From Lentisphaerota bacterium (GTDB taxonomy: Bacteria; Verrucomicrobiota; Lentisphaeria; Victivallales; Victivallaceae): a DNA stretch of 64,000 nucleotides. Positions 12,956-62,708 of the stretch are shown here, piece by piece. Under the pieces are notes generated by a model. That model searched no databases, had not been told where the DNA came from, and was given only the letters and a program-made list of their open reading frames with translations. Position 1 is the stretch's first letter; the number at the start of each line of letters is the position of its first letter. The DNA is taken from assembly GCA_015061625.1 (NCBI GenBank), contig SUWG01000011.1, forward strand, positions 1 to 64,000. Direction: 5' to 3'. The translations under genes and the position numbers were made by a program.

Positions 12956-13195
12956 AGTGGATGAAGTGTGAGGAAAAGTCGCCGCTAAATCAAGGCGAAA
13001 GCGAGGGAGTGTATAAACAAACTCGGCCGAGATTGAGTCCGCCGATTTGGCGCAATGCATTCACCGGCACAACCCGCACAAGTGGATGAAGTGTGAGGCA
13101 AGGTCGCCGCTAAATCAAGGCGAAAGTGAGGGAGTGTATAAACAAACTCGACCGAGATTGAGTCCGCCGATTTGGCAAGAAAAAAGTCCACAATT
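12956..13195 (+). repeat. Dispersed structured repeat A, two tandem copies (A1, A2)
   Basis: Two copies of the family A element follow each other with a 125-bp period. Each carries the block from GTGTGAGG through AAATCAAGGCGAAAG and GAGGGAGTGTATAAAC to GTCCGCCGATTTGGC. The start arm is CTAAATC instead of CCAAATC. The spacer 12664-13209 holds in addition the putP promoter and a CGGCGGT...ACCGCCG hairpin (12867-12907). No gene is seen in it. Confidence 0.85.
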
Positions 13196-13209
13196 CATCC
13201 ACGGGAATA

Positions 13210-13701
13210 TTACTCTTCGATGACATCGAGGATGACTACGTTTTCTGTCGGCACATCCTGATGCATCCCTCTGGAACCGGTTTCGACTTTGGCGATCTCA
13301 TCAACCACATCCATTCCTTCGGTGACTTTGCCGAAAACGCAGTAGCCGAAATACTGGGGGATAGGGGCCTTGAAATTCAGGAAGTCGTTGTCTTCCAAAT
13401 TGATAAAGAACTGGCTGGTCGCAGAATCGACCACCATGGTGCGTGCCATGGCGATCGTGCCGCGTTTATTGGGCAACTGGTTGGCGGCTTCATTTTTGAT
13501 CGGAGCATGGGTATCTTTCTGGACGAATTCAGTATCGAAACCGCCGCCCTGGATCATGAAGCCCGGAATGACCCGGTGAAAAATGGTGTTACGGTAAAAA
13601 CCTTCTTTGACATAAGAGAGAAAGTTTTTGACGGTTTCCGGTGCGGCAGCGGCATCGAGTTCCAATTTGATATCGCCTTTACTGGTTTTGATCGTGACCA
13701 T
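13210..13701 (-). CDS. Peptidyl-prolyl cis-trans isomerase, cyclophilin type
   Basis: 163 residues from the ATG at 13701, which has AAAGGAAA 7 bp upstream. An in-frame GTG six codons earlier is less likely. The cyclophilin core is intact: [13 protein letters not shown] (with the catalytic Arg), the [14 protein letters not shown] block and [14 protein letters not shown]. No signal peptide, so a cytoplasmic PpiB-like protein-folding helper. It follows the unknown membrane-protein gene, separated by a strong terminator, so it is probably a single-gene unit. Confidence 0.9.
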
Positions 13702-13762
13702 AATGATTTCCTTTTGCACGTTATTGATTTTTTTACTGAAAATCAGTATCCGGTTTTATGAA

Positions 13763-13788
13763 AAACGCCGGGAAAACTCCCGGCGTTT
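13763..13788 (-). terminator. Rho-independent terminator of the gene ending at 13814
   Basis: An 11-bp perfect stem, AAACGCCGGGA (13763-13773) with TCCCGGCGTTT (13778-13788), and a 4-base loop. On the minus strand it continues into a T run. It lies 25 bp after the stop of the 13814-14539 gene. Confidence 0.85.
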
Positions 13789-13813
13789 GCGGATTTGCTT
13801 CTGAATCAAAGAA

Positions 13814-14539
13814 TTACATCACACCCAGTTTTTCTTTGCTGGCTTCGAAGTTATCTTTGTCGATGATGGTGTAGCGTTTGCTGAATGCTTCATCCAACTC
13901 ATCTTCATCCGGTGAAAATTCTTCATCGTGTTTGTCAGCGACCACGGCAAAGAGGATGCGGCCGTTGTCAAAACCTTTTTTCAGGTTGCCCAAACCACCG
14001 AGCATACCGACGGAATTTTCAGTAAAGACGAATTTCACTCCGGGTTTTCTGTCGCCGAGGAGCTTATTCAAGTCATTGGCAAATCCGGAAACATCAGTGT
14101 CGATGATCACCACGGTATCAGCATCCGCACCGGCGATAGCCTCTTTGAATTTCGCTCCATCCATCATCATACCGTTTTCCGGATCGGAAGCTTCGACCAC
14201 GGTCACAGAACCGCCGCAAGCCGCTTCCAGAGCCGCTTTTCTGGCCTGGAAATCTTCACTGGTAGTACCGCTGGCCAGCCAGATAACCTTTTTGCCCTGC
14301 AGTTTGCCGCCGATGGTATGAGCCACGGAAAGGCCGTAGATGCGGTTGTGTTCCATAGCGTAGTTGGGCGGATTGAGGTAGAACCAGAAGTACAATCCCA
14401 GACCGATCAGCATCACCACGGCGCAAGCCATAGCCACCGGCTGGATTGAGGGGTTGGTTTTCTGGATTTTAGCGCAAACCAGAACACCGGCGAAACCGCC
14501 GACCATAACGATTAAACCAAGAATACATTGCCAAGCCAT
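13814..14539 (-). CDS. Unknown two-span membrane protein with a soluble alpha/beta domain
   Basis: 241 residues from the ATG at 14539. AAAGGAG sits 8 bp upstream, while the ATG 14 codons earlier has no such site. Two N-terminal membrane segments (about 2-22 and 36-56) are followed by a Rossmann-like soluble region: KVIWLASGTTSEDFQARKAA, VTVVEASDPENG, DTVVIIDTDVSGF and KFVFTENSVGMLG read as beta strands and loops. The acidic tail FSPDEDELDEAF stands out. No family recognised. The repeated strand-helix pattern recalls periplasmic-binding folds, but that is a guess. A terminator follows. Confidence 0.7.
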   Translation of the reverse strand: MAWQCILGLIVMVGGFAGVLVCAKIQKTNPSIQPVAMACAVVMLIGLGLYFWFYLNPPNYAMEHNRIYGLSVAHTIGGKLQGKKVIWLASGTTSEDFQARKAALEAACGGSVTVVEASDPENGMMMDGAKFKEAIAGADADTVVIIDTDVSGFANDLNKLLGDRKPGVKFVFTENSVGMLGGLGNLKKGFDNGRILFAVVADKHDEEFSPDEDELDEAFSKRYTIIDKDNFEASKEKLGVM

Positions 14540-14663
14540 ACATTTTCTCCTTTTCTGTTTCGTATCATAAGGCGCATTCATGCGCGGCTTGATTATACAC
14601 TACACTCAAGAAAAGTAAATGTCAAGCAAATTCAAAAAAATTTTTTTAATATAACCGGAAAAT

Positions 14664-14692
14664 TTGCATTGTTTCCCCTCAAGTGGTATATT
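14664..14692 (+). promoter_or_regulatory. Promoter of the nagA-galM pair
   Basis: TTGCAT (14664-14669), 17 bp, TATATT (14687-14692), 52 bp before the nagA start. Confidence 0.55.
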
Positions 14693-14743
14693 ATCCGGTA
14701 AAAGTAAACACTCTGAAAACAATGCATTATTGAGGTGAAAAAA

Positions 14744-15664
14744 ATGTTCAATCCCGGCTGGGTGGATCTGCAGGTCAATGGTCATAACGGCGTGGATTAC
14801 AGTGAAGCAGGGCTTACTGCCGACAAATTCCTGAAATCCGCCGAGGAATTACTCAATACCGGCACGGAAGTTTTCCTGCCGACGATCATTACCGGTTCGC
14901 TGGAAAAAAATGCGCTCCACGCTTCGATCATCATGGATACCGTGGAAAAACACGGCTTGACCAAAAATATTCCCGGCATCCATTTTGAAGGCCCATTCAT
15001 TTCCCCCACCCCCGGCGCAGTCGGTGCCCACGATCCGGCGTATGTCTGCGCTCCCACGATCGAAAATATCGACCGCCTGCTGGATGCCGCCTGCGGTAAA
15101 ATAAAAATCATCACTTTAGGAGCAGATGCCGAAAATGCCCCCGAAGCAGTCGCTTATCTGCGGAAAAATCATGTCGCCGTCAGCGTCGGTCACCACATGG
15201 CCACTTATGAACAGGTGCGTGCCGCCGCCGATGCCGGAGCGCAACTGCTCACCCATCTGGGCAACGGCTGCCCCAATCTGATCGGCCGCCACCACAACCC
15301 CGTATTCTCCGGTCTGGCCGAGGAAAGGCTGACCGCCATGATCATCACCGACGGCCACCACCTGCCCGGTGAATTGGTCAAAATCATCATCCGGGCCAAA
15401 GGGGTGGATAAGACGATCGTCACCAGTGATGCTTCCAGTCTGACCGGTTTCCCGCCGGGTGAATATTCCACGCTGGGCAACCGGGCGGTGCTTTATCCGG
15501 ATGGCAAACTTTACAATCCGGATAAACAATGTCTGGTCGGTTCCGCTTCCACAGTAAGTCAGTGTATGGAATTTCTGGCCTCACTGGACTTCCTGACCAG
15601 AGATGAATTGATCCGGGTCGGCAGAACCAACGCTCTGGAATTACTCCGCACCACCGGAGAATGA
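14744..15664 (+). CDS. nagA: N-acetylglucosamine-6-phosphate deacetylase
   Basis: 306 residues, amidohydrolase fold. Removes acetate from GlcNAc-6-phosphate in amino-sugar catabolism and cell-wall recycling. Metal and catalytic residues are visible: Glu82 in HFEGPF, His150 in SVGHH, His171 in THLGNG, and the catalytic Asp229 in VTSDAS. The ATG at 14744 is chosen over the in-frame GTG at 14735 because TGAGGTG then forms the ribosome site. At 306 residues it is shorter than usual NagA (about 380). The N-terminal part of the small beta domain is missing and the protein starts almost at the barrel (PGWVDLQVNG), without the first HxH pair. The galM gene follows 3 bp later. Confidence 0.82.
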   Translation: MFNPGWVDLQVNGHNGVDYSEAGLTADKFLKSAEELLNTGTEVFLPTIITGSLEKNALHASIIMDTVEKHGLTKNIPGIHFEGPFISPTPGAVGAHDPAYVCAPTIENIDRLLDAACGKIKIITLGADAENAPEAVAYLRKNHVAVSVGHHMATYEQVRAAADAGAQLLTHLGNGCPNLIGRHHNPVFSGLAEERLTAMIITDGHHLPGELVKIIIRAKGVDKTIVTSDASSLTGFPPGEYSTLGNRAVLYPDGKLYNPDKQCLVGSASTVSQCMEFLASLDFLTRDELIRVGRTNALELLRTTGE

Positions 15665-15667
15665 ACG

Positions 15668-16681
15668 ATGAAAAAGGAAACTTTTTTCACTCTGCCCGAC
15701 GGCAGAACTGCCAATTTATTCAAAATGCGTCTGCCCGATGGCTTCGGAGCGGATATCACCGACTTCGGCGGCTGTGTGGTTTCACTTTTCACTCCGGATG
15801 CTTCCGGTAAACTTACCGATGTGGCTCTGGGGTGGAAAGATCCGTCATACTATATGGTCAATCATACCAATTTCGGGGCCCTGATCGGGCGGATCGCCAA
15901 CCGGATAAGCAACGGCAGATTTGAATTGGATGGCGAAGTGTATCAACTTTATCTGAATGACAACCGCCGCTGTTCGCTGCACGGCTCATTCGGCTTCGGT
16001 CACCGGCTGTGGCAAGTGGAAAATGCCACGGATACCGAATTGACTCTGACGTTATTCAGTCCGCATGGCGATGCCGGATTTCCGGGAAATCTTGCGGTCA
16101 GAGCGGCCTACCGGCTTGGGGCGGATCACACGCTGGAAATCGAAATTTCCGCCGAATCCGACCGGCCGACCGTGGCGGATTTCACCAACCACACCTACTT
16201 CAATCTGGATGGGGAAAATTCCGGTTCCACGGCGGATCACGTCATTGCGATCGCCGCAGATGCTTACACCGAAACCGATCAATATCTGCAACCGACCGGA
16301 AAGATCCTGCCGGTGGATAACAGCCGTTTCGATCTGCGCAAAGGTAAGAAATTCAGCACCATTTTTGCGGAATATGATGGTGGATTCGATGATAATTTCA
16401 TCATCGGCGATGCCGACCACTGTTACCGGGAAAATGTGGCGGTCGTCACTGCCGGACACAGCGGAATAAAGTTGGCAGTGCACACCAGCCGTCCGGGGGT
16501 GCAGCTTTATATGGGCAACTTCCTTGACGATCACGGCAAAAGCCCCTATCCGCGCAACAGCGGTTTCTGCCTGGAAACCCAATGCTGGCCGGATGCGGTG
16601 AATCATCCGGATTTTCCGTCAGTGCGTATCGAACCGGGCAAACCGCATCACAGTATTACCCGCTACAAATTTTCAGTGTAA
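15668..16681 (+). CDS. galM: Aldose 1-epimerase (mutarotase)
   Basis: 337 residues. Interconverts alpha and beta anomers of galactose/glucose. Key residues fit GalM: Arg75 in GRIANRI, His105 in LHG, catalytic His175 in NHTYFNL and catalytic Glu303 in FCLETQ. No signal peptide. Starts 3 bp after nagA with GGAG upstream, so the two form an operon that prepares hexoses and amino sugars for the cell. No galK or galT in the window. Confidence 0.9.
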   Translation: MKKETFFTLPDGRTANLFKMRLPDGFGADITDFGGCVVSLFTPDASGKLTDVALGWKDPSYYMVNHTNFGALIGRIANRISNGRFELDGEVYQLYLNDNRRCSLHGSFGFGHRLWQVENATDTELTLTLFSPHGDAGFPGNLAVRAAYRLGADHTLEIEISAESDRPTVADFTNHTYFNLDGENSGSTADHVIAIAADAYTETDQYLQPTGKILPVDNSRFDLRKGKKFSTIFAEYDGGFDDNFIIGDADHCYRENVAVVTAGHSGIKLAVHTSRPGVQLYMGNFLDDHGKSPYPRNSGFCLETQCWPDAVNHPDFPSVRIEPGKPHHSITRYKFSV

Positions 16682-16734
16682 TGCCGCATTGATCCTAACG
16701 GTAACAAACGGATAGCTGGCAGGGGCATTTCCCG

Positions 16735-16970
16735 GCTTGCGTTGCTCCGTACTTATCCGTATAATTCCGTACCTATCCGTACCGGGCGAATGTCGAGCGT
16801 AAGCGAGGTGCGAGCCTGCACCGGTATTGTTGCCGTTAACAAACCGGTGGAGCGGTTATTTGCTCTTGTGCGTATTGTTGCCGTTCACAAACCGGCACAA
16901 TGATTACCGGCTCTTGTGCGTATTGTTGCCGTTCACAAACCGGTGGAGCGGTTATTGGCTCCTGTTCGCT
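16735..16970 (+). repeat. Repeat B with three tandem 48-bp units
   Basis: Starts with GTTGCTCCGTACTTATCCGT and further CCGTAC..ATCCGTA words. A segment shared with 62.1 kb (CGAGCGTAAGCGAGGTG) follows, then three units of exactly 48 bp at 16824, 16872 and 16920, each opening GTATTGTTGCCGTT and containing ACAAACCGG. The spacer 16682-17567 has no gene. It holds this repeat, a GC-rich stretch, a repeat A copy and a repeat C copy. Confidence 0.8.
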
Positions 16971-17234
16971 TGAGGGGAGGCAAACGCTAACGCCTTTTCC
17001 TCCCCTCAAACTCCCCACCTTTTGCGGGAGATTTCCCGTGATAAAGAGTTGCTCCGGGCGTAAATCCCTTAAAAAGTAACGCCGTCGATTCCGTGGGGCG
17101 GCCGCCAGACCGGCTTTGCCGGTCGTCAAGCGGCTTCGCCTTACGGCTTGCCTGGGCGGCCTTTCCACTGCACATGCCGGCTATTGCTCGCCCGCTTGCT
17201 CATCCTTGCAACTATTGTTGCGGCGGCTTTTACT

Positions 17235-17345
17235 TTGCATTGTGGGCAATCTCTTGCCAAGTCAGCGGTCGTCAACTCGGTCGAGTACGGTCGTACACTC
17301 CTTCGTTGCCGCCTTGACTTGGCTTCGACCTTGCCTCTCAATGCA
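17235..17345 (-). repeat. Repeat A, diverged copy A3 (reverse orientation)
   Basis: Same layout as the other A elements. The long arms read GCCAAGTC (17256-17263) and GACTTGGC (17316-17323), one compensated pair different from the standard GCCAAATC/GATTTGGC. The inner helix is also compensated (GTAC in place of ATAC). Confidence 0.75.
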
Positions 17346-17431
17346 AAGCAAAAGTGCATTCGACTGCGGTCTGCGCGGTTTCCCGTGACAAAGATGAGCT
17401 TGTGCGGCTTGCTGTTGGTGTCCGTATTGTC

Positions 17432-17567
17432 CGTACAGGGGGGTACGGGGGGCAACGCCCCCTGTAAAGGGCGACAGCCCGCCCGATCAAGCCCCGGATG
17501 AAATCCGGGGCGCGACATATCGTTTTTCTTTTGGTTACTTTTCTTTTTCCGTAAAAAGAAAAGTAAC
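17432..17567 (-). repeat. Repeat C (three hairpins) abutting a stop codon
   Basis: Three consecutive hairpins: GGGGGC-AAC-GCCCCC near 17449, GCCCCGGAT-GAA-ATCCGGGGC at about 17491-17512, and the long GTTACTTTTCTTTTT/AAAAAGAAAAGTAAC pair (17534-17567). The last ends at the base before the rubrerythrin stop codon complement, so it is transcribed right after that gene and may serve as its terminator. Related copies lie at 62.5-62.9 kb. Confidence 0.75.
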
Positions 17568-18104
17568 TTAAAAGTAGCGTTTGAGTAAGCCTTCGAAACC
17601 TTTGCCGTGACGGGCTTCATCTTTGGCCATTTCGTGAACGGTGTCATGGATGGCGTCATAGCCGAGTTCTTTGGCACGTTTGGCGATGTCGAATTTACCG
17701 GCACAGGCACCGCATTCGGCTTCGGCGCGCATTTGCAGATTCTTTTTGGTGCTGGAAGTGAGGACTTCACCGAGCAATTCAGCGAATTTGGCGGCGTGTT
17801 CGGCTTCTTCAAAGGCGTAACGTTTGTATGCTTCGGCGATTTCGGGATAGCCTTCACGCTCGGCCTGGCGGCTCATAGCGAGGTACATACCGACTTCGCA
17901 GCATTCGCCTTCGAAATTGGCTTTCAGACCGGCGACGATTTCCGGATCGATACCTTCGGTGGAAGCGACGACGTGTTCACAGGCGTAACTCTGGTCGCCG
18001 GTGACGGCTTTGAATTTAGCGGCGGGTGCTTTGCACTGGGGGCAGAACTCCGGAACTTCGTTACCTTCATGGACATAACCGCAGACACCACAAACGAATT
18101 TCAT
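17568..18104 (-). CDS. Reverse rubrerythrin (peroxide-reducing)
   Basis: 178 residues. The order is rubredoxin domain first (Cys5, Cys8, Cys21, Cys24 in CGVC...CPQC) and then a ferritin-like four-helix diiron domain ([44 protein letters not shown] with E and ExxH ligands). This is the order of reverse rubrerythrins, which reduce hydrogen peroxide in anaerobes. Cytoplasmic. GGGAGAA precedes the ATG. Probable own promoter at 18173-18201 overlapping the end of the upstream gene. Repeat C follows the stop without a gap. Confidence 0.9.
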
Positions 18105-18138
18105 AATTTTTCTCCCTTATCGGTGTTTTTTATTAAGC

Positions 18139-18161
18139 GGGGGGAATACCTTATTTCCCCC
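18139..18161 (-). promoter_or_regulatory. Hairpin in the rubrerythrin leader
   Basis: A run of G at 18139-18144 and the run of C at 18157-18161 form a stem with a short AT loop. It lies between the end of the upstream gene (18198) and the rubrerythrin start. Either it ends upstream transcription or, if the 18173 promoter is used, it sits in the 5' leader. Confidence 0.4.
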
Positions 18162-18172
18162 TGACGTTGCAT

Positions 18173-18201
18173 AAATTAAACCGGTTTGGTAAAAAAATCA
18201 A
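18173..18201 (-). promoter_or_regulatory. Candidate promoter of the rubrerythrin gene
   Basis: TTGATT (18201-18196), 17 bp, TAATTT (18178-18173). The -35 box overlaps the stop codon of the preceding gene. Confidence 0.4.
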
Positions 18202-22302: not shown

Positions 22303-22317
22303 AAATTGTTTCTATTT

Positions 22318-23049: not shown

Positions 23050-23076
23050 GATCGTTGTTCCTTTCGTGGTGGTTGA

Positions 23077-23664: not shown

Positions 23665-23665
23665 T

Positions 23666-24763: not shown

Positions 24764-24793
24764 ATTTATCCCCGATGCAATCCACTAAAAATC

Positions 24794-24813
24794 AAAGTGA
24801 TTTATATCACTTT
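24794..24813. promoter_or_regulatory. Palindromic operator before the GntR/LacI regulator gene
   Basis: AAAGTGATTTATATCACTTT, perfect 8-bp arms around TTAT. It lies just downstream of the -10 box of the regulator's promoter. The core AGTGA-N6-TCACT recurs at 26198-26213. Confidence 0.65.
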
Positions 24814-24822
24814 CTGCTAATT

Positions 24823-26213: not shown

Positions 26214-26353
26214 TGATAATATTTAAAACATAATTCCTGAAAATCTCTTTGTCAAATGATTTTATAAATTTTTACTGAATTTTTCCGTTGCAACAGCCCG
26301 TCCGTCCCGCTCCACCACGACCGGTGGATGGATTGCCCGCAAGCCGCCACCGG

Positions 26354-31270: not shown

Positions 31271-31430
31271 ACCGGTGGATGCAGTGCGAGGCAAGGTCGC
31301 AGCCAAATCAAGGCGAAAGCGAGGGAGTGTATAACCATACTCGACCGAGCTTGAGTCCGCCGATTTGGCAAGAGATTGTCCGCAATGCGCCACCGCAGGT
31401 TATATTTTTCACAAAAATCAAGACAATAAC
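31271..31430 (+). repeat. Repeat A, copy A4, with conserved 3' flank
   Basis: Canonical copy. Arms GCCAAATC (31302-31309) and GATTTGGC (31362-31369), inner GAGTGTATAACCATACTC, followed by GCGCCACCG and GTTATATTTTTCACAAAAAT, a flank shared with the copies at 39.2 kb and (partly) 57.7 and 58.9 kb. It lies between stem-loop blocks D1 and D2. Confidence 0.85.
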
Positions 31431-36898: not shown

Positions 36899-37987
36899 TC
36901 AAATAGTAAAACTTTCTTTATTCCTTGGCAAACGGACTATTTTCATATCCTGAAGCGGCCAGTGACCGTGACCGCCGCAACAGTACGCCAGCAGCAATGC
37001 TTCATCGGTAAAAAGCATCGCCGTGTAGCAATATCCCCGGCGGGGGTCATCCTCCAGCAACACCTTTTCGCCCCAGGTTTTGCCCTCATCCCGGCTGATG
37101 GACATGGCAAACGGGGTGCGATCCCATGAATCTTCCGGCACGATCTTCACGCCCCACCGGGGGTCGCCGTCGCTCCAAATGCCGATCAATTTACCGTCAA
37201 CGGGGTCACGTTTGATGGATAACGGGGTCACAGTACAGGGGAAATATTTCCACGGCAGAGCAGGACTCCAACTTTCCCCCTGATCAAATGAATAGCAGTG
37301 ATACTGGCAGAGTTGATCGGTGCGCATCCACATCAGCAACCGGCCGTCATTCAATTCGACGATGCCCGGCTCCTGCGTACCGGAACGGCAATTCTGCGGC
37401 GGGAAAATATAATTGCCCGATTCATACCAGTTTTCACCGTTGTCATCGGAATAAAGCGTCGTTGCCAGCACCGGATAAAACCCCTGCCCTTTGGGGGTTC
37501 TGGAAACCTGTATGGAAAATACCGGCATGATGATCCGGCCGCTTTTCAACTGGATGAGCCGGTCATTATTGCCGCCGATATTGTATCTGGCACTGGTCAG
37601 TTTTTTCGCTTCGCTCCATGTTGCCGCCTCATCATCGGAAAAGCGGCACATGGTGATGAATGCCGGATATGCTTCGCCGGGTATCTCCTTTTTGGCACAA
37701 TAGACCAAAAGGATCCGGCCGGATTGCAACCGCAGCAGTGACACGGACATCAGATTATTGCCCTCATCCGGATTGTGCCGGAACATGATTTCCGGAGTAC
37801 TCCAGGTTTTACCGCCGTCGGCGGAAATGGTGGAGGCCAGATCACAATCGGCATTATCCTCTCTGGATTCTCCGGTATAACGGGAATAAACAAAGAGTAT
37901 CCTGCCGTCATTCAGGGTGACGAAAGAGCCTTCGGAGTTACGGGGATTGCCATCACCGGAATTGATAAAAAATTCACTGCGTTTCAT
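36899..37987 (-). CDS. Sialidase-like (BNR/Asp-box) protein, copy 1
   Basis: 362 residues from the ATG at 37987, overlapping the stop of the upstream copy as ATGA. Six-bladed propeller signature: FVTLNDGRILFVYSRYTGES, then Asp boxes SADGGKTWS, SDDEAATWS, SDDNGENWY, FDQGESWS and SRDEGKTWG. No signal peptide is seen, so it should be intracellular, acting on imported glycosides. Cleavage of sialic acid is inferred from family and from the adjoining NanA-like gene. The C-terminal ~120 residues are almost identical to copy 2, while the N-terminal half differs strongly. Confidence 0.8.
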   Translation of the reverse strand: MKRSEFFINSGDGNPRNSEGSFVTLNDGRILFVYSRYTGESREDNADCDLASTISADGGKTWSTPEIMFRHNPDEGNNLMSVSLLRLQSGRILLVYCAKKEIPGEAYPAFITMCRFSDDEAATWSEAKKLTSARYNIGGNNDRLIQLKSGRIIMPVFSIQVSRTPKGQGFYPVLATTLYSDDNGENWYESGNYIFPPQNCRSGTQEPGIVELNDGRLLMWMRTDQLCQYHCYSFDQGESWSPALPWKYFPCTVTPLSIKRDPVDGKLIGIWSDGDPRWGVKIVPEDSWDRTPFAMSISRDEGKTWGEKVLLEDDPRRGYCYTAMLFTDEALLLAYCCGGHGHWPLQDMKIVRLPRNKESFTI

Positions 37988-39057
37988 ATTTCGCCTTTGG
38001 GAATACGGACTATTTTCATATCCTGAAGCGGCCAGTGACCGTGACCGCCGCAACAGTACGCCAGCAGCAATGCCTCCCTTGTGAAGTGGATCGCCGTGTA
38101 GCAATATCCCCGGCGGGGGTCATCCTCCAGCAACACCTTTTCGCCCCAGGTTTTGCCCTCATCCCGGCTGACGGACATGGCAAACGGGGTGCGATCCCAT
38201 GAATCTTCCGGCACGATCTTCACGCCCCACCGGGGGTCGCCGTCGCTCCAAATGCCGATCAATTTACCGTCAGCGGGGTCACGTTTGATGGATAACGGGG
38301 TCACAGTACAGGGGAAATATTTCCACGGCAGGGCGGGACTCCAACTTTCCCCCTGATCGGATGAATAACAGTGGTACTGGCAGAGCAGATCGGTGCGTAT
38401 CCACATCAGCAACCGGCCGTCATTCAATTCGACGACTCCCGGCTCCTGCATACCGGTCATACTGCCGTTGACCGGGAATACCGCACCGGGAAAGCCATAC
38501 CAGTTTTCCCCGTCATCATCCGAATAGATGATCGAAGTTATCCGGGGCAGAAAATCGTTGCCTTTGGGGGTGTCAAGCACCACCGTGCGCCAGACCGGAG
38601 CGATGATCCGGCCGCTTTTCAACTGGATCATGCGGTCATTATTCATGCCGGTACGGTTGGAAAAGGTGGACATCAATTTGATTCCGCTCCACGTTTTGCC
38701 CTCATCGTCAGAGTAACGGCAGACCGGGATCAAACTGGAATACGTTTCACCGGGCAGGAACTTTTCCGACAGATAGGAGATCAGTATTCTGCCGGAATGC
38801 AGCCGCAGAAACGATACTGACATCACATTTCTGCCGCCGGTTTCATTGGTAAACAAAGTTTCCGGTTTGCTCCATGTCACTCCGTCATCACCGGAATAAC
38901 AACAGGCGATTTCGCAATCGGCATGATCTTCCTGCGTTTCTCCGGTGTAACGGGAGTAGGCAAAAAGTATCCTGCCGTCATTCAGAGTGACGAAAGAACC
39001 CTCGGAGTTGCGGGGATTGTTTTCACCCGACTCAAACAACCATTCACTTCTGGACAT
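37984..39057 (-). CDS. Sialidase-like (BNR/Asp-box) protein, copy 2
   Basis: 357 residues, tandem paralogue of the next gene. Begins RSEWLFESGENNPRNSEGSF. Asp boxes are SGDDGVTWS, SDDEGKTWS, SDDDGENWY, SDQGESWS and SRDEGKTWG. First gene of the operon 39057-35983, with a strong promoter at 39151-39179. No signal peptide. The part from about residue 235 to 345 is nearly identical to copy 1 at DNA level, a sign of recent duplication or gene conversion restricted to that segment. Confidence 0.8.
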   Translation of the reverse strand: MSRSEWLFESGENNPRNSEGSFVTLNDGRILFAYSRYTGETQEDHADCEIACCYSGDDGVTWSKPETLFTNETGGRNVMSVSFLRLHSGRILISYLSEKFLPGETYSSLIPVCRYSDDEGKTWSGIKLMSTFSNRTGMNNDRMIQLKSGRIIAPVWRTVVLDTPKGNDFLPRITSIIYSDDDGENWYGFPGAVFPVNGSMTGMQEPGVVELNDGRLLMWIRTDLLCQYHCYSSDQGESWSPALPWKYFPCTVTPLSIKRDPADGKLIGIWSDGDPRWGVKIVPEDSWDRTPFAMSVSRDEGKTWGEKVLLEDDPRRGYCYTAIHFTREALLLAYCCGGHGHWPLQDMKIVRIPKGEI

Positions 39058-39150
39058 GGCATTTTCTTTCTATCTTAATTTTTTGGTAATGTCCTAAATT
39101 TTGTGAAACTGGTATATAAAGTTATATGCGGCAAATTCCACAACAAACAA

Positions 39151-39179
39151 AATATACCATGGCCAGTTGGATTTGTCAA
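39151..39179 (-). promoter_or_regulatory. Promoter of the sialidase-nanA operon
   Basis: TTGACA (39179-39174), 17 bp, TATATT (39156-39151) on the minus strand. The spacer contains CTGGCCATGG, a partial palindrome. The spacer 39058-39519 holds this promoter and repeat A copy A5, with no gene seen. Confidence 0.65.
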
Positions 39180-39200
39180 CCGGAAAACACGGTTTGTCAG

Positions 39201-39360
39201 CAACCGGTGGATGCAGTGTGAGGCAAGGTCGTAGCCAAATCAAGGCGAAAACGAGGGAGTGTATAACCATACTCGACCGAGCTTGAGTCCGCCGATTTGG
39301 CAAGAGATTGCCCGCAATGCGCCACCGTAAGTTATATTTTTCACAAAAATCAGGACAATG
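39201..39360 (+). repeat. Repeat A, copy A5, with conserved 3' flank
   Basis: Canonical copy starting near ACCGGTGGATGCAGTGTGAG, with GCCAAATC/GATTTGGC arms, the inner GAGTGTATAACCATACTC helix, and the GTTATATTTTTCACAAAAAT flank seen after A4. Confidence 0.85.
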
Positions 39361-39519
39361 ACAATTTTTTCCGGCTCAACCGGTAGGTCAAACTGCCGCA
39401 CATTTTAATTGCCTTGCGCTCAAATGTTGCACAAATAAATTGCGCAACCTCGCTCACGGCAGGTGGTGTCGGCGCAGATTGCGCCGGTTTGGCAGGAAAA
39501 AAGCCCGCGGGACACCGTC

Positions 39520-52577: not shown

Positions 52578-52598
52578 GATATTTTATCCCCCCTGTGA

Positions 52599-53576: not shown

Positions 53577-53579
53577 ATA

Positions 53580-54206: not shown

Positions 54207-54234
54207 ATTCATACCCTTTTTAAATTGTTGGTGG

Positions 54235-57200: not shown

Positions 57201-57567
57201 CATTGGCGTAGAAAAATTCCAGAGCCGCCCGGAATTTGGCGTGGTTGGTCAGATCGTTGAAAATTTTACTGGGAAAAGTGACATTGCCGAAACCGGTAGT
57301 CACCGGGCAGTAACTGATGACTTCAACGTGGGAACCGATCAAGCCGTCATGGCGCAGTTTGAGGAAGTTTTCCACCGAAGGGACCCGCAAAATGGCAGAA
57401 GAAATTTCACAACCGTCATTGTTGAAGATCACCCGGCGCGGACGGGATTGCAGTTTTTCCCATCTGGCTTGAGCCATTTCCGGGTCGATGGTATCACCGG
57501 CAAAGAGAGCGAGGCCCAGAACAGTGCCGGAAATGAGCATCAATTTTTTGAAAAATCTCTGTTTCAT
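54235..57567 (-). CDS. Large exported glycosidase-like protein with two C-terminal GDGSVA domains
   Basis: 1110 residues. Signal peptide ~1-23 (LMLISGTVLGLALFAG). Residues ~40-440 look like a GH-A/DUF187-type TIM barrel (RRVIFNNDGCE, AHAHNMESFFSMRMNDCHDSF, YPLDGIELDFCRHWAF with candidate acid Glu/Asp, RPILLMVRVLDSVGACL, VKFYSTQTEAQM). Two beta-sandwich regions follow (~440-740). Then come two copies of a ~175-residue domain, at about 745-915 and 935-1110, each ending GDGSVA. AGGAAAAAAC precedes the ATG. First gene of the operon down to 47016, so its export and binding modules fit glycan capture outside the cell. Confidence 0.65.
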   Translation of the reverse strand: MKQRFFKKLMLISGTVLGLALFAGDTIDPEMAQARWEKLQSRPRRVIFNNDGCEISSAILRVPSVENFLKLRHDGLIGSHVEVISYCPVTTGFGNVTFPSKIFNDLTNHAKFRAALEFFYANGTDPMMESLRFAHAHNMESFFSMRMNDCHDSFTGGEDLWPPLKTQRPDLLFSTRDVRPPYGYWNGVDYSKKEVRDLACAIIREVVERYPLDGIELDFCRHWAFLKSAAFGDQVTQAEIDGMTDMIRQMRIICDEAGRKRNRPILLMVRVLDSVGACLAQGLDLEKWCADGLVDIVAGGSEIRLNQTAYMAELARRYPRVKFYSTQTEAQMVGQHPLLKRNNNPLNFRGQAAVAHYEKVGIYSFNEYFPGLDHARYLNEIGDEKLLMGLNKFYYFSHVYSNAGSYGRDWERFQIMPKVVPAGPMPVDRDGKEIELYCGNENPGAKMLLMLHLRNASVDTVQVHFNGTLLENGRTLDGLAVYEVPQSIWHPGKNIVSVRTTGDAAPRTLLAGDQLLVYGGNQGAWRRLFGSEGFVAGKSEYIEDNAYVLCDVTDDFVSNLVHPLEASANSNITVSAEVKLGFATAPEAAVMRIANGVFTETLQFHANGVRLKNAGFFHACDTTGNFHNYALNINNNILTLTIDGRQVYRGEMRTRFADDAEVVERYSVSKMGYLAGNSIIIGSLAPQGKSKVSFRNLQVLNSTVAGYLVDGALLVIHKPNERDLPVSLMPTVAERIPESGEKATVTLTPEDHSQWVKIGSAANFAIQNDGFKLDSRVNGPVIRHLLKAKCDFLEVRFAFTVKDLQERNPQLQALIVLDGAAGKSNLWGFRFTGNSIRFVDDAPVTFPVGSDGKVTGRIVIDPVSGAAEVYIGDGTEPILRHRPIVINRTAEAVSFGDGSVAIKGETLLHSAEIIMHGVRPPATIKDQLPAEETGVIALAPGRSQGWQKLSFNRNNLITANEYFQFNNQSAGPMFRHAFANGNMRFVAVEFEFSPLDENCTKAQLQTTIIVDAVEEGKSYLYGFRFGKDHFRFLDEAPLPVRPDANGRIHVLLLIDRENDKAEIFFNHSLFPALVHKALKINRGNPTITFGDGSVAVEGSCRFYGAEVKVY

Positions 57568-57649
57568 ACTGTTTTTTCCTGTTTTCTGTTATTATCCCGA
57601 ATTTTATAAAAATCAAAAAATCATCTTTTTTTATACACAACTTTTGATC

Positions 57650-57790
57650 TGCAGTGTGAGGCAAAGGCGGATAAGCAGGATCCACCTTCGCCAAGGCTGC
57701 GGCGGACAGGGTGTACTATCGTACTCGACTGCGAAAACGTCCGCAGACAGGCCAAGAGATTGCCCGCAATGCACCACCGTAACTTGTTTT
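57650..57790 (+). repeat. Repeat A, strongly diverged copy A6
   Basis: Keeps the outer parts (GCAGTGTGAGGCAA at the start, GCCAAGAGATTGCCCGCAATG and CACCACCGTAA at the end). The inner helix is GTGTAC-tatc-GTACTC. The arms between them are replaced by GCGGAC/GTCCGC-type pairing. The spacer 57568-57895 holds only this element and AT-rich flanks. Confidence 0.6.
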
Positions 57791-57895
57791 TTTACAAAAT
57801 TTAAGATTTTTCCGCTGAAAATCCCGAATCCGGGCAAAATAATCTCCGGACATAAACCACTGGTTTACGCCGGAGCATTATCATAACATCACACT

Positions 57896-58660
57896 TCAGA
57901 AGGAAGTTTTTACCGTATTATTCTGAACATACACTGCCAGCACCGGATTACCGGCGGAATCTTTGGATTCATCTCTGGCTTCCTGCGGGGTCATGCTGGA
58001 AACGTGACCGTCAGACCAGCCGATATTGGCTTTGCCGCCGTGGTCAAACGCCGCAACGTTGGCATTGGTCGCACTGAATTTAGCATTGCCCCATTCGGCC
58101 ATCTGTTTACCTGTAGCCGGGTTGAAAGTGTCAGCCATGATCATTTTGGTACCCTGGATGCGGTCAAGGAAAAGATAATGAACTGTAGCACTTCCCAGCG
58201 TAGTTTCAATTCCGGCGTCTTCTCCCAGATAATTCGCCCATTTGTTGGTGCTGTTGACCCGCATAATACCATAGGAGGCGGTTCTCTGTGTAACCCAAGC
58301 TTCGGTACTGCCTTCGGGATATCCGGTCGGCTCATGGGAAGGACAAAGCAGAATATTGGTATCAAAGTCAAATCCGCGCAATTTAAGTACGTTGGCCCAA
58401 GCCTGTCCTACCCAAACAGTCCATACGGCACCGCCCTGATGGGCATCGGCATAAAAACGGATTTGGGTGAGGCACTGTTTCTGGTTATTGATACAGCTGG
58501 CGGCACGGCCGCGTTCACGGGCGGAGTTGAGGGCGGGCAGCAGAATAGCCGCCAAAATGGCGATGATCGCAATGACGACGAGAAGTTCAATAAGAGTAAA
58601 GCTGTGCTTTACTCCGCCATGGCGGAGTTCGGAATTTCCGGAAACGGTCATTTTTTTCAT
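57896..58660 (-). CDS. Type II secretion prepilin-like protein with DGH motif (third)
   Basis: 254 residues from the ATG at 58660 (GAGG 6 bp upstream). Leader with ELRHGGVK, then [20 protein letters not shown] and [20 protein letters not shown]. The C-terminal motif [11 protein letters not shown] matches the other two. Here the palindrome in the leader is CTCCGCCATGGCGGAG (58612-58627), changed at two paired positions from that of the other copies, and the adjoining hairpin AGTAAAGC-tgt-GCTTTACT (58595-58613) is 3 bp shorter but still paired. Promoter at 58855-58883, with a ~190-base leader containing a possible 27-codon gene. Confidence 0.85.
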
Positions 58661-58750
58661 AACAAACCTCACTTTTTTTGATTTTAAGGAAGCGGGAACC
58701 AATTTTTACTTTTACAATGGTAACTGACAACTCTCAAAAAATGCAACTTT

Positions 58751-58834
58751 TTAATCAGCGAACCACCATTTTTTCAACTTCTCAAACGTTGTTTTCACCT
58801 TAAAAAGTGCTTTTTCTGACATTTCAACTGTCAT
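58751..58834 (-). CDS. Possible 27-residue peptide in the prepilin gene leader
   Basis: ATG at 58834, TAA at 58753-58751. The peptide begins MTVEMSEKALFKVKTTFEKL and ends with a Lys-Lys-Trp-Trp-Phe run. AAGG lies 4 bp before the ATG, and the promoter's -10 box is 20 bp upstream, so the ATG would be near the start of the transcript. An amphipathic basic helix with a Trp-Trp end is plausible. It could be a leader peptide or a small membrane-active peptide. Nothing but the sequence supports it. Confidence 0.3.
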   Translation of the reverse strand: MTVEMSEKALFKVKTTFEKLKKWWFAD

Positions 58835-58854
58835 TACACCTTATAACAATATTT

Positions 58855-58883
58855 AATATACTACTGCTTTTTATTTTTGTCAA
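58855..58883 (-). promoter_or_regulatory. Promoter of the third prepilin gene
   Basis: TTGACA (58883-58878), 17 bp, TATATT (58860-58855) on the minus strand. The spacer 58661-59189 holds this promoter, the possible 27-codon gene, repeat A copy A7 and a repeat B fragment. Confidence 0.65.
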
Positions 58884-58929
58884 ATATTTTTTTGACTTTT
58901 TTTATAACTGTACTGCTTTTGTGAAAAAT

Positions 58930-59068
58930 CAAACCTGCGGTGGCGCATTGCGGGCAATCTCTTGCCAAATCGGCGGACTCAAGCTCGGTCGAGTATGGTT
59001 ATACACTCCCTCGCTTTCGCCTTGATTTGGCGGCGACCTTGCCTCACACTGCATCCACCGGTTGCTAA
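58930..59068 (-). repeat. Repeat A, copy A7 (reverse orientation)
   Basis: Canonical copy read on the minus strand. GCCAAATC/GATTTGGC arms, inner GAGTGTATAACCATACTC, and the flank GCGCCACCGCAGGTTTG with TTTTTCACAAAA, as after A4 and A5. Confidence 0.85.
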
Positions 59069-59170
59069 CAAGCCGTGTCGGCTCGCTCACGCTCGATATG
59101 CGCCCGGTACGGATAGGTACGGAGGGGTACGGATGAGTACGGAGCAACGCAAGCCGGGGATAAACCGGCG
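59068..59170 (-). repeat. Repeat B fragment (reverse orientation)
   Basis: Contains the CTCGCTCACGCTCGA segment, then GGTACGGATAGGTACGG, GGGTACGGATGAGTACGGAG and CAACGCAAGCCGGG. This is the reverse complement of the opening of the repeat B copies at 16.7 and 62.1 kb, without the 48-bp units. Confidence 0.7.
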
Positions 59171-59189
59171 GCCGGTGCGGTTGGCTCGC

Positions 59190-61142
59190 TTACGCTTTTA
59201 CCACGCACCATGAACCTGCGGGCATGGTCAACTGGCGGCCTTTTACCGCACCCTTTCCGGCAATGATCTTTCCATCGGCGAAAGGCAATTCAAAAGACTC
59301 CTGCGGACAATCCTTTTCTTTGAAAATCAGCACATAACCGGCATCGGAACTCAAGCCGGTGAAACTTTTGCCATCCGGTTCCGTGCCGACGGGGGAAATC
59401 ACGGAATGGAAAATATCCCGGCGGATCTTGCGGTGCAAACCGATCATCTCCCGCAAAGTGTCAGCATATTCCGGCGGCAATGCCGACGGAGCAGTCCAAA
59501 TCAGCATATTGGCAAAAATGGCAATGGCGCACCAGTAGTCAAAAGAATATGCCGCCGGATCGGGAGCATCGGGAGCCGGATCGCGGATATCTGCGGGCGA
59601 CGGCACTTCGATCTGCAGCGTCTGCGGGCGCACATAGCGGCTCAACTGCCACAAATTACGCAACGTTTTTTCCGGATGATAGGAGATCTCACCGGGCAGA
59701 TAGCAGTAGCGGTTTTCCAGAAAGATGTTGCCGTATTCAAGAAAATAGAAGTACCCCGGCCGCTGGCCGTTGGTCGTGTCAAGGTTGAAAAAGATCTGTT
59801 TGCCGCTCTTTTCCCGCACGGTGCGGAGCAGAGATTCAAGATTTTCCTGCGCCTGATAATTCTGAATGCGGACACCATCGATTTTCACCGTGGCAAAGTG
59901 ATATTTCCGGTGATAATCCAGAAGCATGGCGGCAAATTCAGCGTGGTCGGCAAAGAGTCTGGTGTATGACGGTGCGCACCACAACCCCAGCTTGACCCCG
60001 GCATTTTCAGCGGCATCGACCAGCGGCGCAAAACCGGCAGGCAGACGGCCGGAATTGATCTGCCAGAAATCCGCACTGATCGCCAGATTGTTGCCGGTCA
60101 ATTCGTTAAGACCTTTGCCCTGCTGCCATGAATCGTCGATCTGATAGACCTCCGCCCCGATCAAACCGGCGGCGGCGATCTCATCCAAAAGAAATTTCTC
60201 CCCGGTCAACTGCGGAAATCTGCCGCATCCCCACGGATTGACCAGCACCGCGGCTTCGGATTCCGCCATCGGGAACCGGCCGGATAAATAGTTATGCAAG
60301 GCGGCAGTAAGATCACCTTTGCCGGTCAGAGCGATCCAGACCGTGCGGTAACTGCGGAAAGTTTTACCGGGCATCAATTCACCGGGCATCACGCCCCAGC
60401 AACAACTGCAAAGCGTATTTTCCCCGATGCGGAAGTCATATTTTTCAAAATCCCGTCTTTCCGCACTGGGCGGGGCCTCCTGCAAAACGAGAAGTGCCGG
60501 AACATCATTTTCAGCGAGAATCAGCAAGTTGCCGGAAAATTTCTCTTCCCCGTTTCCGGCGGCAGAGTGTTCGATGACCAGATCGTTATGGTAGTCGGTG
60601 CGGCCGCGGAATTCCACACTTTTCACCGCTTTGACCCCATCGGCAAGGGCGATGGAATCAACGTCACTCTCCAGCACGGCATCAGGAAAACGGCTGCAGG
60701 CGGCGGATAATTCCGGGCGGTAACTCCAGTAGCAGTTGGGAATGCTCTGCGAAACAAGTTCATTCTGCACCGAAATCGCCGGCAGATCGGGATAAATGCG
60801 GAAAATACGGGTGAATTCCGCCTGCTGGTAACTCTCTTTGAAAGAAAACCTTACTTCGATATGCGGCGCATCAAAGGGGGGATTTTCCACAATAACTGCG
60901 GAAACAGGCGATGAAATATGCCAGTCGGTTTCGTTTCTTCCGGGCATATTCAACCCGAAAAATGAACAATCGCAGGAGTTTTTCTGCGGAGCGGAAAATT
61001 CAGTACCGCCACTGACCAGCGATACAGTGACAGGATAATGGTTCTGCAAGTCGATCGTGCGCTGCAGAAATTGATTGCCGATGACCAGACGGGAATCATC
61101 CCAACGGGCAAATGCAGTGCGGAAAGTAAGTTTTTCAGCCAT
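59190..61142 (-). CDS. GH36-like alpha-galactosidase
   Basis: 650 residues from the ATG at 61142 (GGGAGG 8 bp upstream, 2 bp after the regulator's stop). The N-terminal beta supersandwich spans ~1-290. The (beta/alpha)8 barrel has VYQIDDSWQQG (333-342) and the nucleophile Asp422 in TVKIDGVR, the KxD motif of GH36/GH27. LGLWCAPSYTRLF precedes it. A C-terminal beta domain completes the fold. No signal peptide, so it splits imported alpha-galactosides. The substrate is not certain, since the acid/base region (LDTTNGQRPGYFYFLEYGN) is atypical. Co-transcribed with the GntR/FCD regulator. Confidence 0.78.
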   Translation of the reverse strand: MAEKLTFRTAFARWDDSRLVIGNQFLQRTIDLQNHYPVTVSLVSGGTEFSAPQKNSCDCSFFGLNMPGRNETDWHISSPVSAVIVENPPFDAPHIEVRFSFKESYQQAEFTRIFRIYPDLPAISVQNELVSQSIPNCYWSYRPELSAACSRFPDAVLESDVDSIALADGVKAVKSVEFRGRTDYHNDLVIEHSAAGNGEEKFSGNLLILAENDVPALLVLQEAPPSAERRDFEKYDFRIGENTLCSCCWGVMPGELMPGKTFRSYRTVWIALTGKGDLTAALHNYLSGRFPMAESEAAVLVNPWGCGRFPQLTGEKFLLDEIAAAGLIGAEVYQIDDSWQQGKGLNELTGNNLAISADFWQINSGRLPAGFAPLVDAAENAGVKLGLWCAPSYTRLFADHAEFAAMLLDYHRKYHFATVKIDGVRIQNYQAQENLESLLRTVREKSGKQIFFNLDTTNGQRPGYFYFLEYGNIFLENRYCYLPGEISYHPEKTLRNLWQLSRYVRPQTLQIEVPSPADIRDPAPDAPDPAAYSFDYWCAIAIFANMLIWTAPSALPPEYADTLREMIGLHRKIRRDIFHSVISPVGTEPDGKSFTGLSSDAGYVLIFKEKDCPQESFELPFADGKIIAGKGAVKGRQLTMPAGSWCVVKA

Positions 61143-61144
61143 GA

Positions 61145-61849
61145 TCAAACCTCCCAAGTCCGCAGTGACTGCTGGGAACGGTATTCCGATAAAAGCTGAC
61201 CTATGCCCTTGACGCAAATGTGGGTATTGAGCAGTTTTTTGGCCCGTTCCGCCTTGCGCTGGCAGAGCAGTGAAGTAATTTTCTGGTGGCCGCGGATCTT
61301 GGCAACAGTACCCTCTTTGACCTGCGGCACCAGCGATTTGCCGATGGCCAGAATCGACGGACAAAGGTAGGAACGCACCCGGAAAAAGGGCATCTGACGG
61401 CGCATATAATCAAAAATCGCCGGGGATTTGGATAAACGGCAGAGATGGAGATGAAAATTGTCATCATGGCGGATCGCTTCATGCACATGGACGATGCGGT
61501 CGGCATTTTCCGCCAGCGGATTCAACGATGCCAACTCCTCATCTGTGGCGTAACGGCAGGCAAGTTCGACGGCTTTTTCCTCCACCGCCAAACGCAACTG
61601 CATGGAATCCCAGACATCTTCAGGGGAAAGCAGAGCGATCCGGGTGCCGGAACGTTTTTTGGTGACGAGAAGTTTTTCGCTTTCCAGCATCTTAAAAGCG
61701 ATGGAAGCCGGTTGGGTACTTACGCCGAACATTTGCGCCATCATCCGCAAAGAGATCTGTTCGCCGGGGGCAAGCGCACCCTCGCTGATCATCCGGATCA
61801 TGCGCTCAATGATCAACTCGGCGAAATCGCAACTTTCACTGTTGTCCAT
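61145..61849 (-). CDS. GntR-family regulator, FCD type, of the GH36 operon
   Basis: 234 residues. Winged helix ~8-75 (IIERMIRMISEGALAPGEQISLRMMAQMFGVSTQPASIAFKMLESE). The FCD domain has ELACRYATDEELASL, HDDNFHLHLCRLSKSP and the late His in RGHQKI, likely metal-site residues. GAGG precedes the ATG. It is the first gene of a two-gene operon with the GH36 enzyme. The palindrome overlapping its -10 box (61924-61934) suggests self-repression relieved by a sugar or sugar acid. Confidence 0.83.
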   Translation of the reverse strand: MDNSESCDFAELIIERMIRMISEGALAPGEQISLRMMAQMFGVSTQPASIAFKMLESEKLLVTKKRSGTRIALLSPEDVWDSMQLRLAVEEKAVELACRYATDEELASLNPLAENADRIVHVHEAIRHDDNFHLHLCRLSKSPAIFDYMRRQMPFFRVRSYLCPSILAIGKSLVPQVKEGTVAKIRGHQKITSLLCQRKAERAKKLLNTHICVKGIGQLLSEYRSQQSLRTWEV

Positions 61850-61923
61850 TAAAGAATCCTCATTGTATTATTTCCAAACTGTGATGACAAAAAATTTAAT
61901 TTTCTGTAATTTCAGTGACAGCC

Positions 61924-61934
61924 GTATACTATAC
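61924..61934. promoter_or_regulatory. Operator palindrome over the -10 box
   Basis: GTATACTATAC, perfect 5-bp arms around one base. It overlaps the -10 box at 61928-61933, a position that would repress. Confidence 0.5.
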
Positions 61935-61956
61935 TCATTTCGCCTTGAAAAATCAA
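61928..61956 (-). promoter_or_regulatory. Promoter of the GntR-GH36 operon
   Basis: TTGATT (61956-61951), 17 bp, TATAGT (61933-61928) on the minus strand. Confidence 0.55.
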
Positions 61957-62084
61957 GTTTTTCAGCAAAATTTATCAGAAAAAATCTGCGGATATGATAA
62001 TTTAATGCTTCGGATTTACCGGAAAAAGCGACTTTCTTGCGGTAAAGAACAGTAATCAACGGTAACAAACGGTAACAAACGGAT

Positions 62085-62300
62085 AGTTGGCGGGGAGATT
62101 TCCCGGCTTGCGTTGCTCCGTACTTATCCGTACAACTCCGTCCCCCTCCGTACCGGGCGTATATCGAGCGTAAGCGAGGTGCAAGTTTGCTCCGGGTGTG
62201 TTGCCGTTAACAAACCGGTGGAGCGGTTATTGGCTTTTGCGCGTATTGTTGCCGTTAACAAACCGGTGGAGCGGTTATTGGCTCTTAACGGGCAAAAGTT
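62085..62300 (+). repeat. Repeat B with two tandem 48-bp units
   Basis: Opens with TTGGCGGGGAGATTTCCCGG and CGTTGCTCCGTACTTATCCGT, as at 16.7 kb. Units of 48 bp start at 62195 and 62243 and contain TTGCCGTTAACAAACCGGTG. It is preceded by CGGTAACAAACGGTAACAAA, short direct repeats also found at 16.69 and 46.87 kb. Confidence 0.8.
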
Positions 62301-62359
62301 TATTCGCATACGGGCTGCGCGCTCGGCGGCGACCGCCTCGCACCCGTAAGAAAAACGCC

Positions 62360-62450
62360 ATTGTGCGGCTCGCTTGCGCTCGATATGCGCCCGGTACGGA
62401 TAGGTACGGAGGGGTACGGATGAGTACGGAGCAACGCCAGCCGGGCTATC
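62360..62450 (-). repeat. Repeat B fragment facing the copy at 62085
   Basis: Reverse complement of the opening of repeat B (CTCGCTTGCGCTCGA, GGTACGGATAGGTACGG, CAACGCCAGCCGGG). With the copy at 62085 it forms a large inverted arrangement about 60 bp apart. Confidence 0.7.
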
Positions 62451-62473
62451 CGTTAATTACCGTTAGTTACCGT

Positions 62474-62580
62474 TGAGCCGAAACAAACAAAACCCCGGCA
62501 GACTGCTGTCTACCGGGGGGTACGGGGGGCAACGCCCCCTGTAAAGGGCGGTGTCAACCGCCCGCCGAGCCGAAACACAC
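62474..62580 (+). repeat. Repeat C fragment
   Basis: GAGCCGAAACAAACAAAACC, then the GGGGGGTACGGGGGGCAACG hairpin region and CTGTAAAGGGCGG. A stretch of about 75 bp is repeated almost exactly at about 62764-62838. Confidence 0.75.
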
Positions 62581-62592
62581 AGCGGCTTTTTG

Positions 62593-62708
62593 CGAAGCAG
62601 TGCGAGGCAATGTCGAAGTCAAACAGAGGCAACGGCGAGGGAGCATACTATGTATGTGACCGAGCCGGTGTCCGATAGTTTGACAAGAGATTGCCCGCAA
62701 TGCAAAGC
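62593..62708 (+). repeat. Repeat A, diverged copy A8
   Basis: Outer parts are like the family (GCAGTGCGAGGCAA, CAAGAGATTGCCCGCAATGC). Arms are GTCAAAC (62618-62624) and GTTTGAC (62678-62684), and the inner helix is GCATAC-tat-GTATGT. Both helices differ in sequence from the standard copies but remain paired. Embedded between two repeat C fragments. Confidence 0.75.

Follow-up and report, generated by a model that had tools for sequence, protein, structure and literature searches.

In many families of bacterial palindromic repeats, the copies are too alike for selection on a fold to be told from recent copying. A role in mRNA stability or at 3' ends has been proposed for some REP and ERIC copies. 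Miniature inverted-repeat transposable elements (MITEs) are already known to contain promoters (PMC10969869, excerpt), and AT-rich 8-bp target duplications are given as a trait of the IS256 family (PMC7780238, excerpt). From Lentisphaerae, Acido-Lenti-1 has been put forward as a structured RNA candidate (PMC2864571, excerpt). Here we analyse a 64,000-nt stretch (the window) of a Lentisphaerota bacterium (assembly GCA_015061625.1, contig SUWG01000011.1, positions 1 to 64,000; C43 in our numbering of this 2.7-Mb draft genome, which is 91% complete) and a dispersed hairpin repeat that it contains. One strand of this repeat is under selection to fold, and a subset of its copies travels inside a MITE.

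The repeat core is a single long imperfect hairpin of ~129 nt. Its outermost part is an arm that differs between subfamilies and is paired nonetheless (GGTGGATGCA / TGCGCCACC in one, CTTTTACTTTGCA / GGTAAAGTAAAAG in another). Inward of it come a bulged A and a 5-bp helix, GGCAA:TTGCC and variants, then an asymmetric basal loop (5' side GGTCGNN, 3' side AAGAGA) and an 8-bp helix, GCCAAATC:GATTTGGC and variants. Beyond this helix AAGG lies opposite CCG, followed by a variable helix. The apex, GAGGGAGTGTAC...GTACTCGACCGA, is made of two G:C pairs flanked by two tandem G·A steps, the outer of which has become Watson-Crick pairs in C35:81220, C26:122193 and C10:78183. The first-pass annotation had described two short helices; there is instead one hairpin, whose outer arms run on further than it had seen. 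A second design keeps the base and the apex and has a different middle (relatives' loci L153, L154 and L164, and some copies of this genome such as L127).

Two variants of the tandem arrangement deserve mention. A subfamily with another outer arm, AAAAACGGTGTATGG / CCATACACCGTTTTT, forms short tandem arrays at contig ends (L151, L160 and L169, genome G016). In tandem arrays we also see half-swapped copies, whose 5' half comes from one subfamily and whose 3' half from another, so that a helix is lost (L015 2686-2813, L015 3144-3271, L009 1202-1329); their make-up suggests a possible exchange at the apex.

Compensatory changes are frequent along the hairpin. Among 25 copies of this genome aligned without structure, two-sided changes occur in 25 of the 48 pairs, amounting to 120 cells against 35.5 in shuffles, and to 8 to 26 cells when the partners are slid. 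In 58 distinct copies from relatives they occur in 36 of the 48 pairs (369 cells against 99.7 in shuffles; 46 to 66 with slid partners; this alignment had been fitted to the model). The paired changes noticed at first pass in two helices are thus real and reach wider. For a tree-aware null, written as our own script and distinct from R-scape, a tree was built from 127 of 137 rows after removal of duplicates and fragments, and in each of 30 rounds the changes of every column were scattered over it at random. At E < 0.05, 12 column pairs were significant; all 12 are pairs of the model, they spread across three helices, and none lies elsewhere. The covariation goes beyond phylogeny, as for a structured nucleic acid, and does not separate RNA from single-stranded DNA.

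The two strands do not fold equally well. With RNA parameters, the written strand is more stable than its complement in all 126 distinct copies of at least 115 nt, with mean energies of -59.9 kcal/mol for the written strand, -48.3 kcal/mol for the complement and -36.4 kcal/mol for mononucleotide shuffles; with DNA parameters this holds for 124 of the 126. Of the changes away from Watson-Crick pairs on the tree, 83 gave G·T and 40 gave A·C, with 37 against 8 on internal branches and 46 against 32 at the tips (Fisher p 0.009). G·T persists over A·C and therefore fits RNA or single-stranded DNA, not a purely double-stranded palindrome. We conclude that one strand is under selection to fold. Selection on a folded RNA or a hairpin DNA had been proposed from the sequence at first pass, and strand-specific folding together with tree-aware covariation supports its structured nature.

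Copies were collected with two covariance models: R1, the first, and R2, a later one trained on a set that includes seven of the eight copies originally reported in the window. R1 gave 117 matches at E 0.01 or better in this genome (150 of 1002 candidates scored), and a DNA search placed the hairpin repeat at 48 sites in it. All eight reported copies are matched by R2; the one at 57643 is the sole copy outside its training set. The features of the window are:

12953..13073, + strand: hairpin, first of a tandem pair (R2 E 1.3e-13), 3' arm partly altered, no MITE end seen
13079..13207, + strand: hairpin, second of the tandem pair (R2 E 4.7e-23), 2 nt beyond the stop codon of the convergent gene 13210-13719(-)
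17226..17353, - strand: hairpin of the subfamily with outer arm CTTTTGCTTTGCA / TGCAAAGTAAAAG (R2 E 1e-30)
31271..31399, + strand: hairpin with the right MITE end present and the left one not seen (R2 E 1.3e-35)
31405..31430, + strand: right terminal repeat of the 31271 copy, by sequence match
39077..39084, no strand: left 8-bp target duplication, AATTTTTT, read from the sequence
39085..39362, + strand: complete 278-bp MITE with terminal inverted repeats, by its ends and length
39151..39179, - strand: sigma70-like promoter TTGACA-N17-TATATT, directed outward through the left end and facing gene 37984-39057(-), read from the letters and conserved among the MITEs
39203..39331, + strand: hairpin within the complete MITE (R2 E 1.3e-34)
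39363..39370, no strand: right 8-bp target duplication, AATTTTTT, read from the sequence
57643..57783, + strand: divergent hairpin whose basal loop contains an insertion (R2 E 8.1e-5 over the window; no R1 match)
58934..59062, - strand: hairpin with a degenerate right MITE end (R2 E 9.7e-36)
62588..62714, + strand: hairpin with an altered apical helix, GCATAC : GTATGT (R2 E 1e-29)

Two further weak, partial R2 matches lie in the window, at 26320 (E 0.012) and 12866 (E 0.034). At the latter, positions 12866-12960 hold a degenerate partial third copy adjoining the tandem pair and then, in the reading direction of gene 13210-13719(-), a T-rich stretch; it may act as a terminator for that gene. 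Other repeated intergenic units, for example GGGGGTACGGGGGGCAACGCCCCCTGT and CGGATAGGTACGGAGGGGTACGG, stand beside naked hairpins, those without a MITE end, and form mosaics with them (window 16720-17140, 62040-62560 and 62720-62930). Elsewhere, hairpin copies often lie no more than about 150 bases from contig ends (C3, C6, C7, C16, C22, C25, C26, C36 and many contigs of genome G002). The repeat therefore seems to interrupt assembly from short reads, and copies may have been undercounted.

In the relatives G012 and G017, near-identical copies share common flanks that end at defined points. The element so bounded has typical ends GATAATGTCCCGAATTTTGTGAAAC and TTTTTCACAAAAAATGAGACAATAAC, inverted over ~25 bp. 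We gathered 95 distinct elements, picked by left and right end patterns in sampled loci: 67 measure 276-283 bp, 70 carry the hairpin signature, and 74 are flanked by an exact 8-bp target duplication, where shuffled flanks expect 1.4 and none of the 95 has one of 9 or 10 bp. The duplications, read from the sequence, are mostly AT-rich. Terminal inverted repeats and target site duplications, two marks of a MITE, are both present. The 3' flank TTTTTCACAAAA that several copies were said to share is indeed common to them; it is the right terminal repeat of the MITE, a transposon end of known type. The hairpin itself is not part of that end: in the complete MITE of the window it is internal, with ~93 bp between it and the left repeat and 5 bp between it and the right, and among the 117 copies of this genome both MITE ends accompany 14, at least one end 31, and none was seen near 86. 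Some of the hairpins thus travel inside ~280-bp MITEs as cargo. The MITE belongs to a known kind, within which it forms a new family; what is unusual is the hairpin module.

Some MITEs lack the hairpin or its tip (L109, L111, L115, L123, L128). Four of these, L111, L128, L109 and L115, are hairpin-less and retain exact duplications, while L111, L123 and L128 are deletion derivatives of the hairpin. When the label 'MITE end seen or not' is placed on the tree of copies, it changes 20 times (at least 27 and on average 35 times in shuffles): the context is inherited yet repeatedly changing, label errors being part of that count. The first-pass annotation had offered a non-coding mobile element or a structured RNA as alternatives; the duplications and the covariation bear out both, and we combine them here. 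Beside or inside some MITEs lies a smaller palindromic unit like GGCTTGTCACGGCGTAGTGTAAACGAAGCCGG (L122, L124, L126, L132, and the right flanks of C36:97014 and 98178), which looks as if repeats were nested in repeats.

Between the left end and the hairpin, the MITE carries an outward sigma70-like promoter, TTGACA-N17-TATATT or TATGTT, on the strand opposite to the hairpin. With at most two mismatches of twelve it is found in 62 of the 88 elements of at least 200 bp, and on the hairpin's own strand in 2; the mean number of mismatches is 2.3 against 3.9 in shuffles, many of these MITEs being closely related and hence not independent. Across 80 MITE insertions, the promoter side faces 31 gene starts and 44 gene ends, no preference for starts (p 0.17).

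From the duplications and, as weak evidence, the ends, we infer that an IS256-family transposase may move the MITEs. Four ends flanking IS256-family genes of the genus resemble the MITE ends, with scores reached by 3, 4, 7 and 49 of 2000 shuffles, the ends having been picked for that likeness. The ends of these genus elements are similar to those of the MITE, not the same. The IS256 transposase (PF00872) has no match in this draft genome and is found in 6 of the 34 genus genomes; short-read bins may lack multi-copy elements, which bears on this absence. Nor does it track the hairpin, occurring in 1 of 18 genomes with R1 matches and in 5 of 16 others. Three other candidate partners were set aside. 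The Y1 transposase (PF01797) has no match in this genome, and 6 of 18 R1 carriers against 5 of 16 others have it (11 of 34 in the genus); for the reverse transcriptase domain RVT_1 the split is 4 of 18 against 4 of 16. An integron integrase exceeds the TIGR02249 cut-off in none of the 34 genus genomes, with sub-threshold matches in 33 of the 34 and in 14 of 14 controls. These carrier splits are approximate, as R2 later gave weak matches in G011 and G007, both counted among the 'others'.

Copies lie between genes, as had been noted for the window: 114 of 116 copies examined in this genome do not overlap a called gene, this count resting on a crude gene caller. On some contigs all or most copies run one way (13/13 on C22, 7/7 on C25, 5/5 on C35, 16/19 on C36). 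As a proxy for replication we took the GC skew of sampled stretches and collapsed neighbours to 87 clusters, C22 and C43 falling below the skew threshold and staying uncounted. Of the 55 clusters of this genome whose skew was usable, 43 have the folding strand opposite the G-rich one (p 3e-5); the figures are 30/38 for naked clusters (p 5e-4) and 14/19 for those with a MITE end (p 0.06). Naked or tandem copies of this genome thus mostly carry the folding sequence opposite the G-rich strand. In named relatives, where most of the 75 copies sampled come from one MITE-rich genome, SIG89, the overall count shows no bias (37/75); naked copies there lean the same way (9/11, p 0.07). The pattern would be explained if copies whose stable strand is in the lagging-strand template were lost, and also if insertion were coupled to replication.

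Convergent gaps between genes hold more copies than divergent ones (22 against 9). Gene ends facing the 3' side of the hairpin lie within 10 nt of it in 14 of 56 cases, and those facing the 5' side in 0 of 56. A choice of target flush with stop codons on the 3' side was considered and dropped: MITEs abut stop codons at both ends, and we therefore read the one-sided closeness as compact intergenic space and longer repeated 5' flanks. Of the 34 genus genomes, 33 (counting the present one) have a match to the gene that ends at 13210. Among 32 relatives with a match, 19 were checked, and none has a hairpin after the stop codon of the 13210-13719 orthologue; in G015 a hairpin lies on the other side, ~60 bp before its start. 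The copy at this gene is probably a recent acquisition.

R1 finds the repeat in 18 of 60 genomes, all within the genus (18/34; 0/26 outside it). With strict filters and 17 candidates scored per genome, which make the counts lower bounds, R2 matches at least 36 of the 197 genomes in the class. Of these, 20 belong to the genus (out of its 34), 9 to other genera within the family and 2 to the rest of the order, one of them with a strong match (E 1e-29); the remaining 5, all weak, come from a different family in the class. A 25-base pattern, a kind of exact search that recovers close copies only, matched 76 stretches in a set of 84,980 species genomes; every stretch has Lentisphaerae or Lentisphaeria in its title, and some come from sheep, roe deer and yak gut; the viral collection gave no match to it.

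We now propose that the repeat is a selected single-stranded fold, spread in part by an IS256-type transposase. This enzyme would move the hairpin-bearing MITEs; the folded strand would act as a single-stranded nucleic acid, most simply RNA read through from adjacent genes, and might be bound by a protein at the base loop and the apex; slippage would remove copies sooner when their stable strand is in the lagging-strand template, which would give the orientation bias. Taken whole, this explanation stands in our view an even chance of being right. We think it unlikely, with some real prospect all the same, that the hairpin is an independent genetic parasite, whose folded strand would be recognised by a putative enzyme or RNA-binding protein for its own replication-coupled spread, and which would colonise unrelated carriers, the IS256-type MITE included, with two interchangeable middles between a fixed base and apex. 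Both ratings are held down because the comparison of IS256 ends is partly circular and because MITE-borne copies of named relatives show no orientation bias (28/64). Several other observations also weigh against our proposal. Pair counts from alignments A2 and A3 lean towards the model, to which both had been fitted; only alignment A1 is free of fitting, yet the structure was drawn from A1; and the tree of the tree-aware test was built from the same columns. Some contigs of this genome are mixed in orientation (C1 3:2, C2 4:3, C31 4:2, C43 5:2), and adjacent genes have no clear preferred orientation. The good MITE promoter reads opposite to the hairpin strand (62 against 2 of the 88 elements), and the IS256 transposase is absent here and rarer among R1 carriers than among other genomes of the genus, as given above.

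The hairpin could also be a structural or regulatory part of the IS256-type MITE, for instance one shielding the outward promoter from read-through, with no further role for the folded strand and with naked copies as MITE relics without ends. Its signature in 70 of the 95 MITEs, usually at the same place, agrees with this, as does the inheritance of context on the tree (20 changes against 27 or more in shuffles). However, 86 of the 117 copies of this genome have no recognisable end, tandem arrays and other repeated flanks occur, hairpin-less MITEs keep exact duplications, and the strand asymmetry requires a single-stranded role, and we regard a pure MITE component as unlikely, though with some real prospect. 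Strand-specific folding would be accommodated by a mobile single-stranded-DNA hairpin like REP/REPIN or IS200/IS605, for which a Y1 (HUH) enzyme would recognise the folded strand at replication forks and move the naked copies, the MITE being a later vehicle. The replication-linked naked copies, here and at p 0.07 in relatives, and the tandem and half-swapped copies are in its favour. Yet Y1 is missing from this genome and shows no link to R1 carriers in the genus; moreover, IS200/IS605 elements target the lagging-strand template (PMC6006769, excerpt), whereas the folding sequence lies opposite the G-rich strand and thus not in that template, if the G-rich strand is the leading one here. We find this rather unlikely.

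Roles on transcripts fare worse. For a 3'-end or mRNA-stability element of adjacent genes speak the excess of convergent gaps and the 14 of 56 gene ends close to the 3' side. But those 14 genes would transcribe the complement, which is the less stable strand; no consistent T-run follows the hairpin, as judged by eye; and, with MITEs abutting stop codons at both ends, the closeness may reflect compact intergenic space only. Such a function is improbable. Finally, the strand-specific fold and the replication-linked orientation could belong to a retrotransposed RNA resembling short interspersed nuclear elements, inserting at replication forks with a borrowed reverse transcriptase; but RVT_1 is no commoner in R1 carriers than in the others, by the split given above, and the hairpin strand in MITEs has no conserved promoter, which leaves this reading highly improbable.

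The copies of this family vary enough for selection on one folded strand to be visible, and in some species the family is young enough that its carrier, its target duplications and its losses can still be seen. With it one can test what purpose such repeat hairpins serve, and whether the RNA or the single-stranded DNA does the work. A further gain is a MITE family with a promoter from an uncultured gut group.

How does it compare with known systems? Integron attC sites are folded single strands of comparable length with bulged bases. The present repeat differs from them in that no integrase rises above the cut-off in the 34 genus genomes and both orientations occur; no cassette arrays were seen, although these were not searched for systematically. 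It likewise differs from Acido-Lenti-1 and other Rfam RNAs: no family, RF01687 included, reaches threshold in the window, and in a relaxed search (E up to 5) at four loci the matches lay off the hairpins, so the first impression that it fits no known class holds for Rfam. The literature listings searched gave no description of this repeat, which is not proof of absence. REP/REPIN sequences with their RAYT transposases are also many dispersed intergenic hairpins, tandem too, with predicted single-strand folds, as excerpts of PMC3116915 and PMC6006769 describe them; REPs measure 20-40 nt there against ~129 nt here, and Y1 is neither encoded in this genome nor linked to the repeat in the genus. 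Closest to the carrier are IS256-family and prokaryotic MITEs such as Correia, ERIC and QMITE: like it, they are short, non-coding and intergenic, with inverted ends, AT-rich 8-bp duplications, a stable stem-loop and a sigma70-like promoter, according to the excerpt of PMC10969869. What sets our element apart from these is an internal hairpin with strand-specific covariation, two designs, and most copies of this genome lying outside recognisable MITEs.

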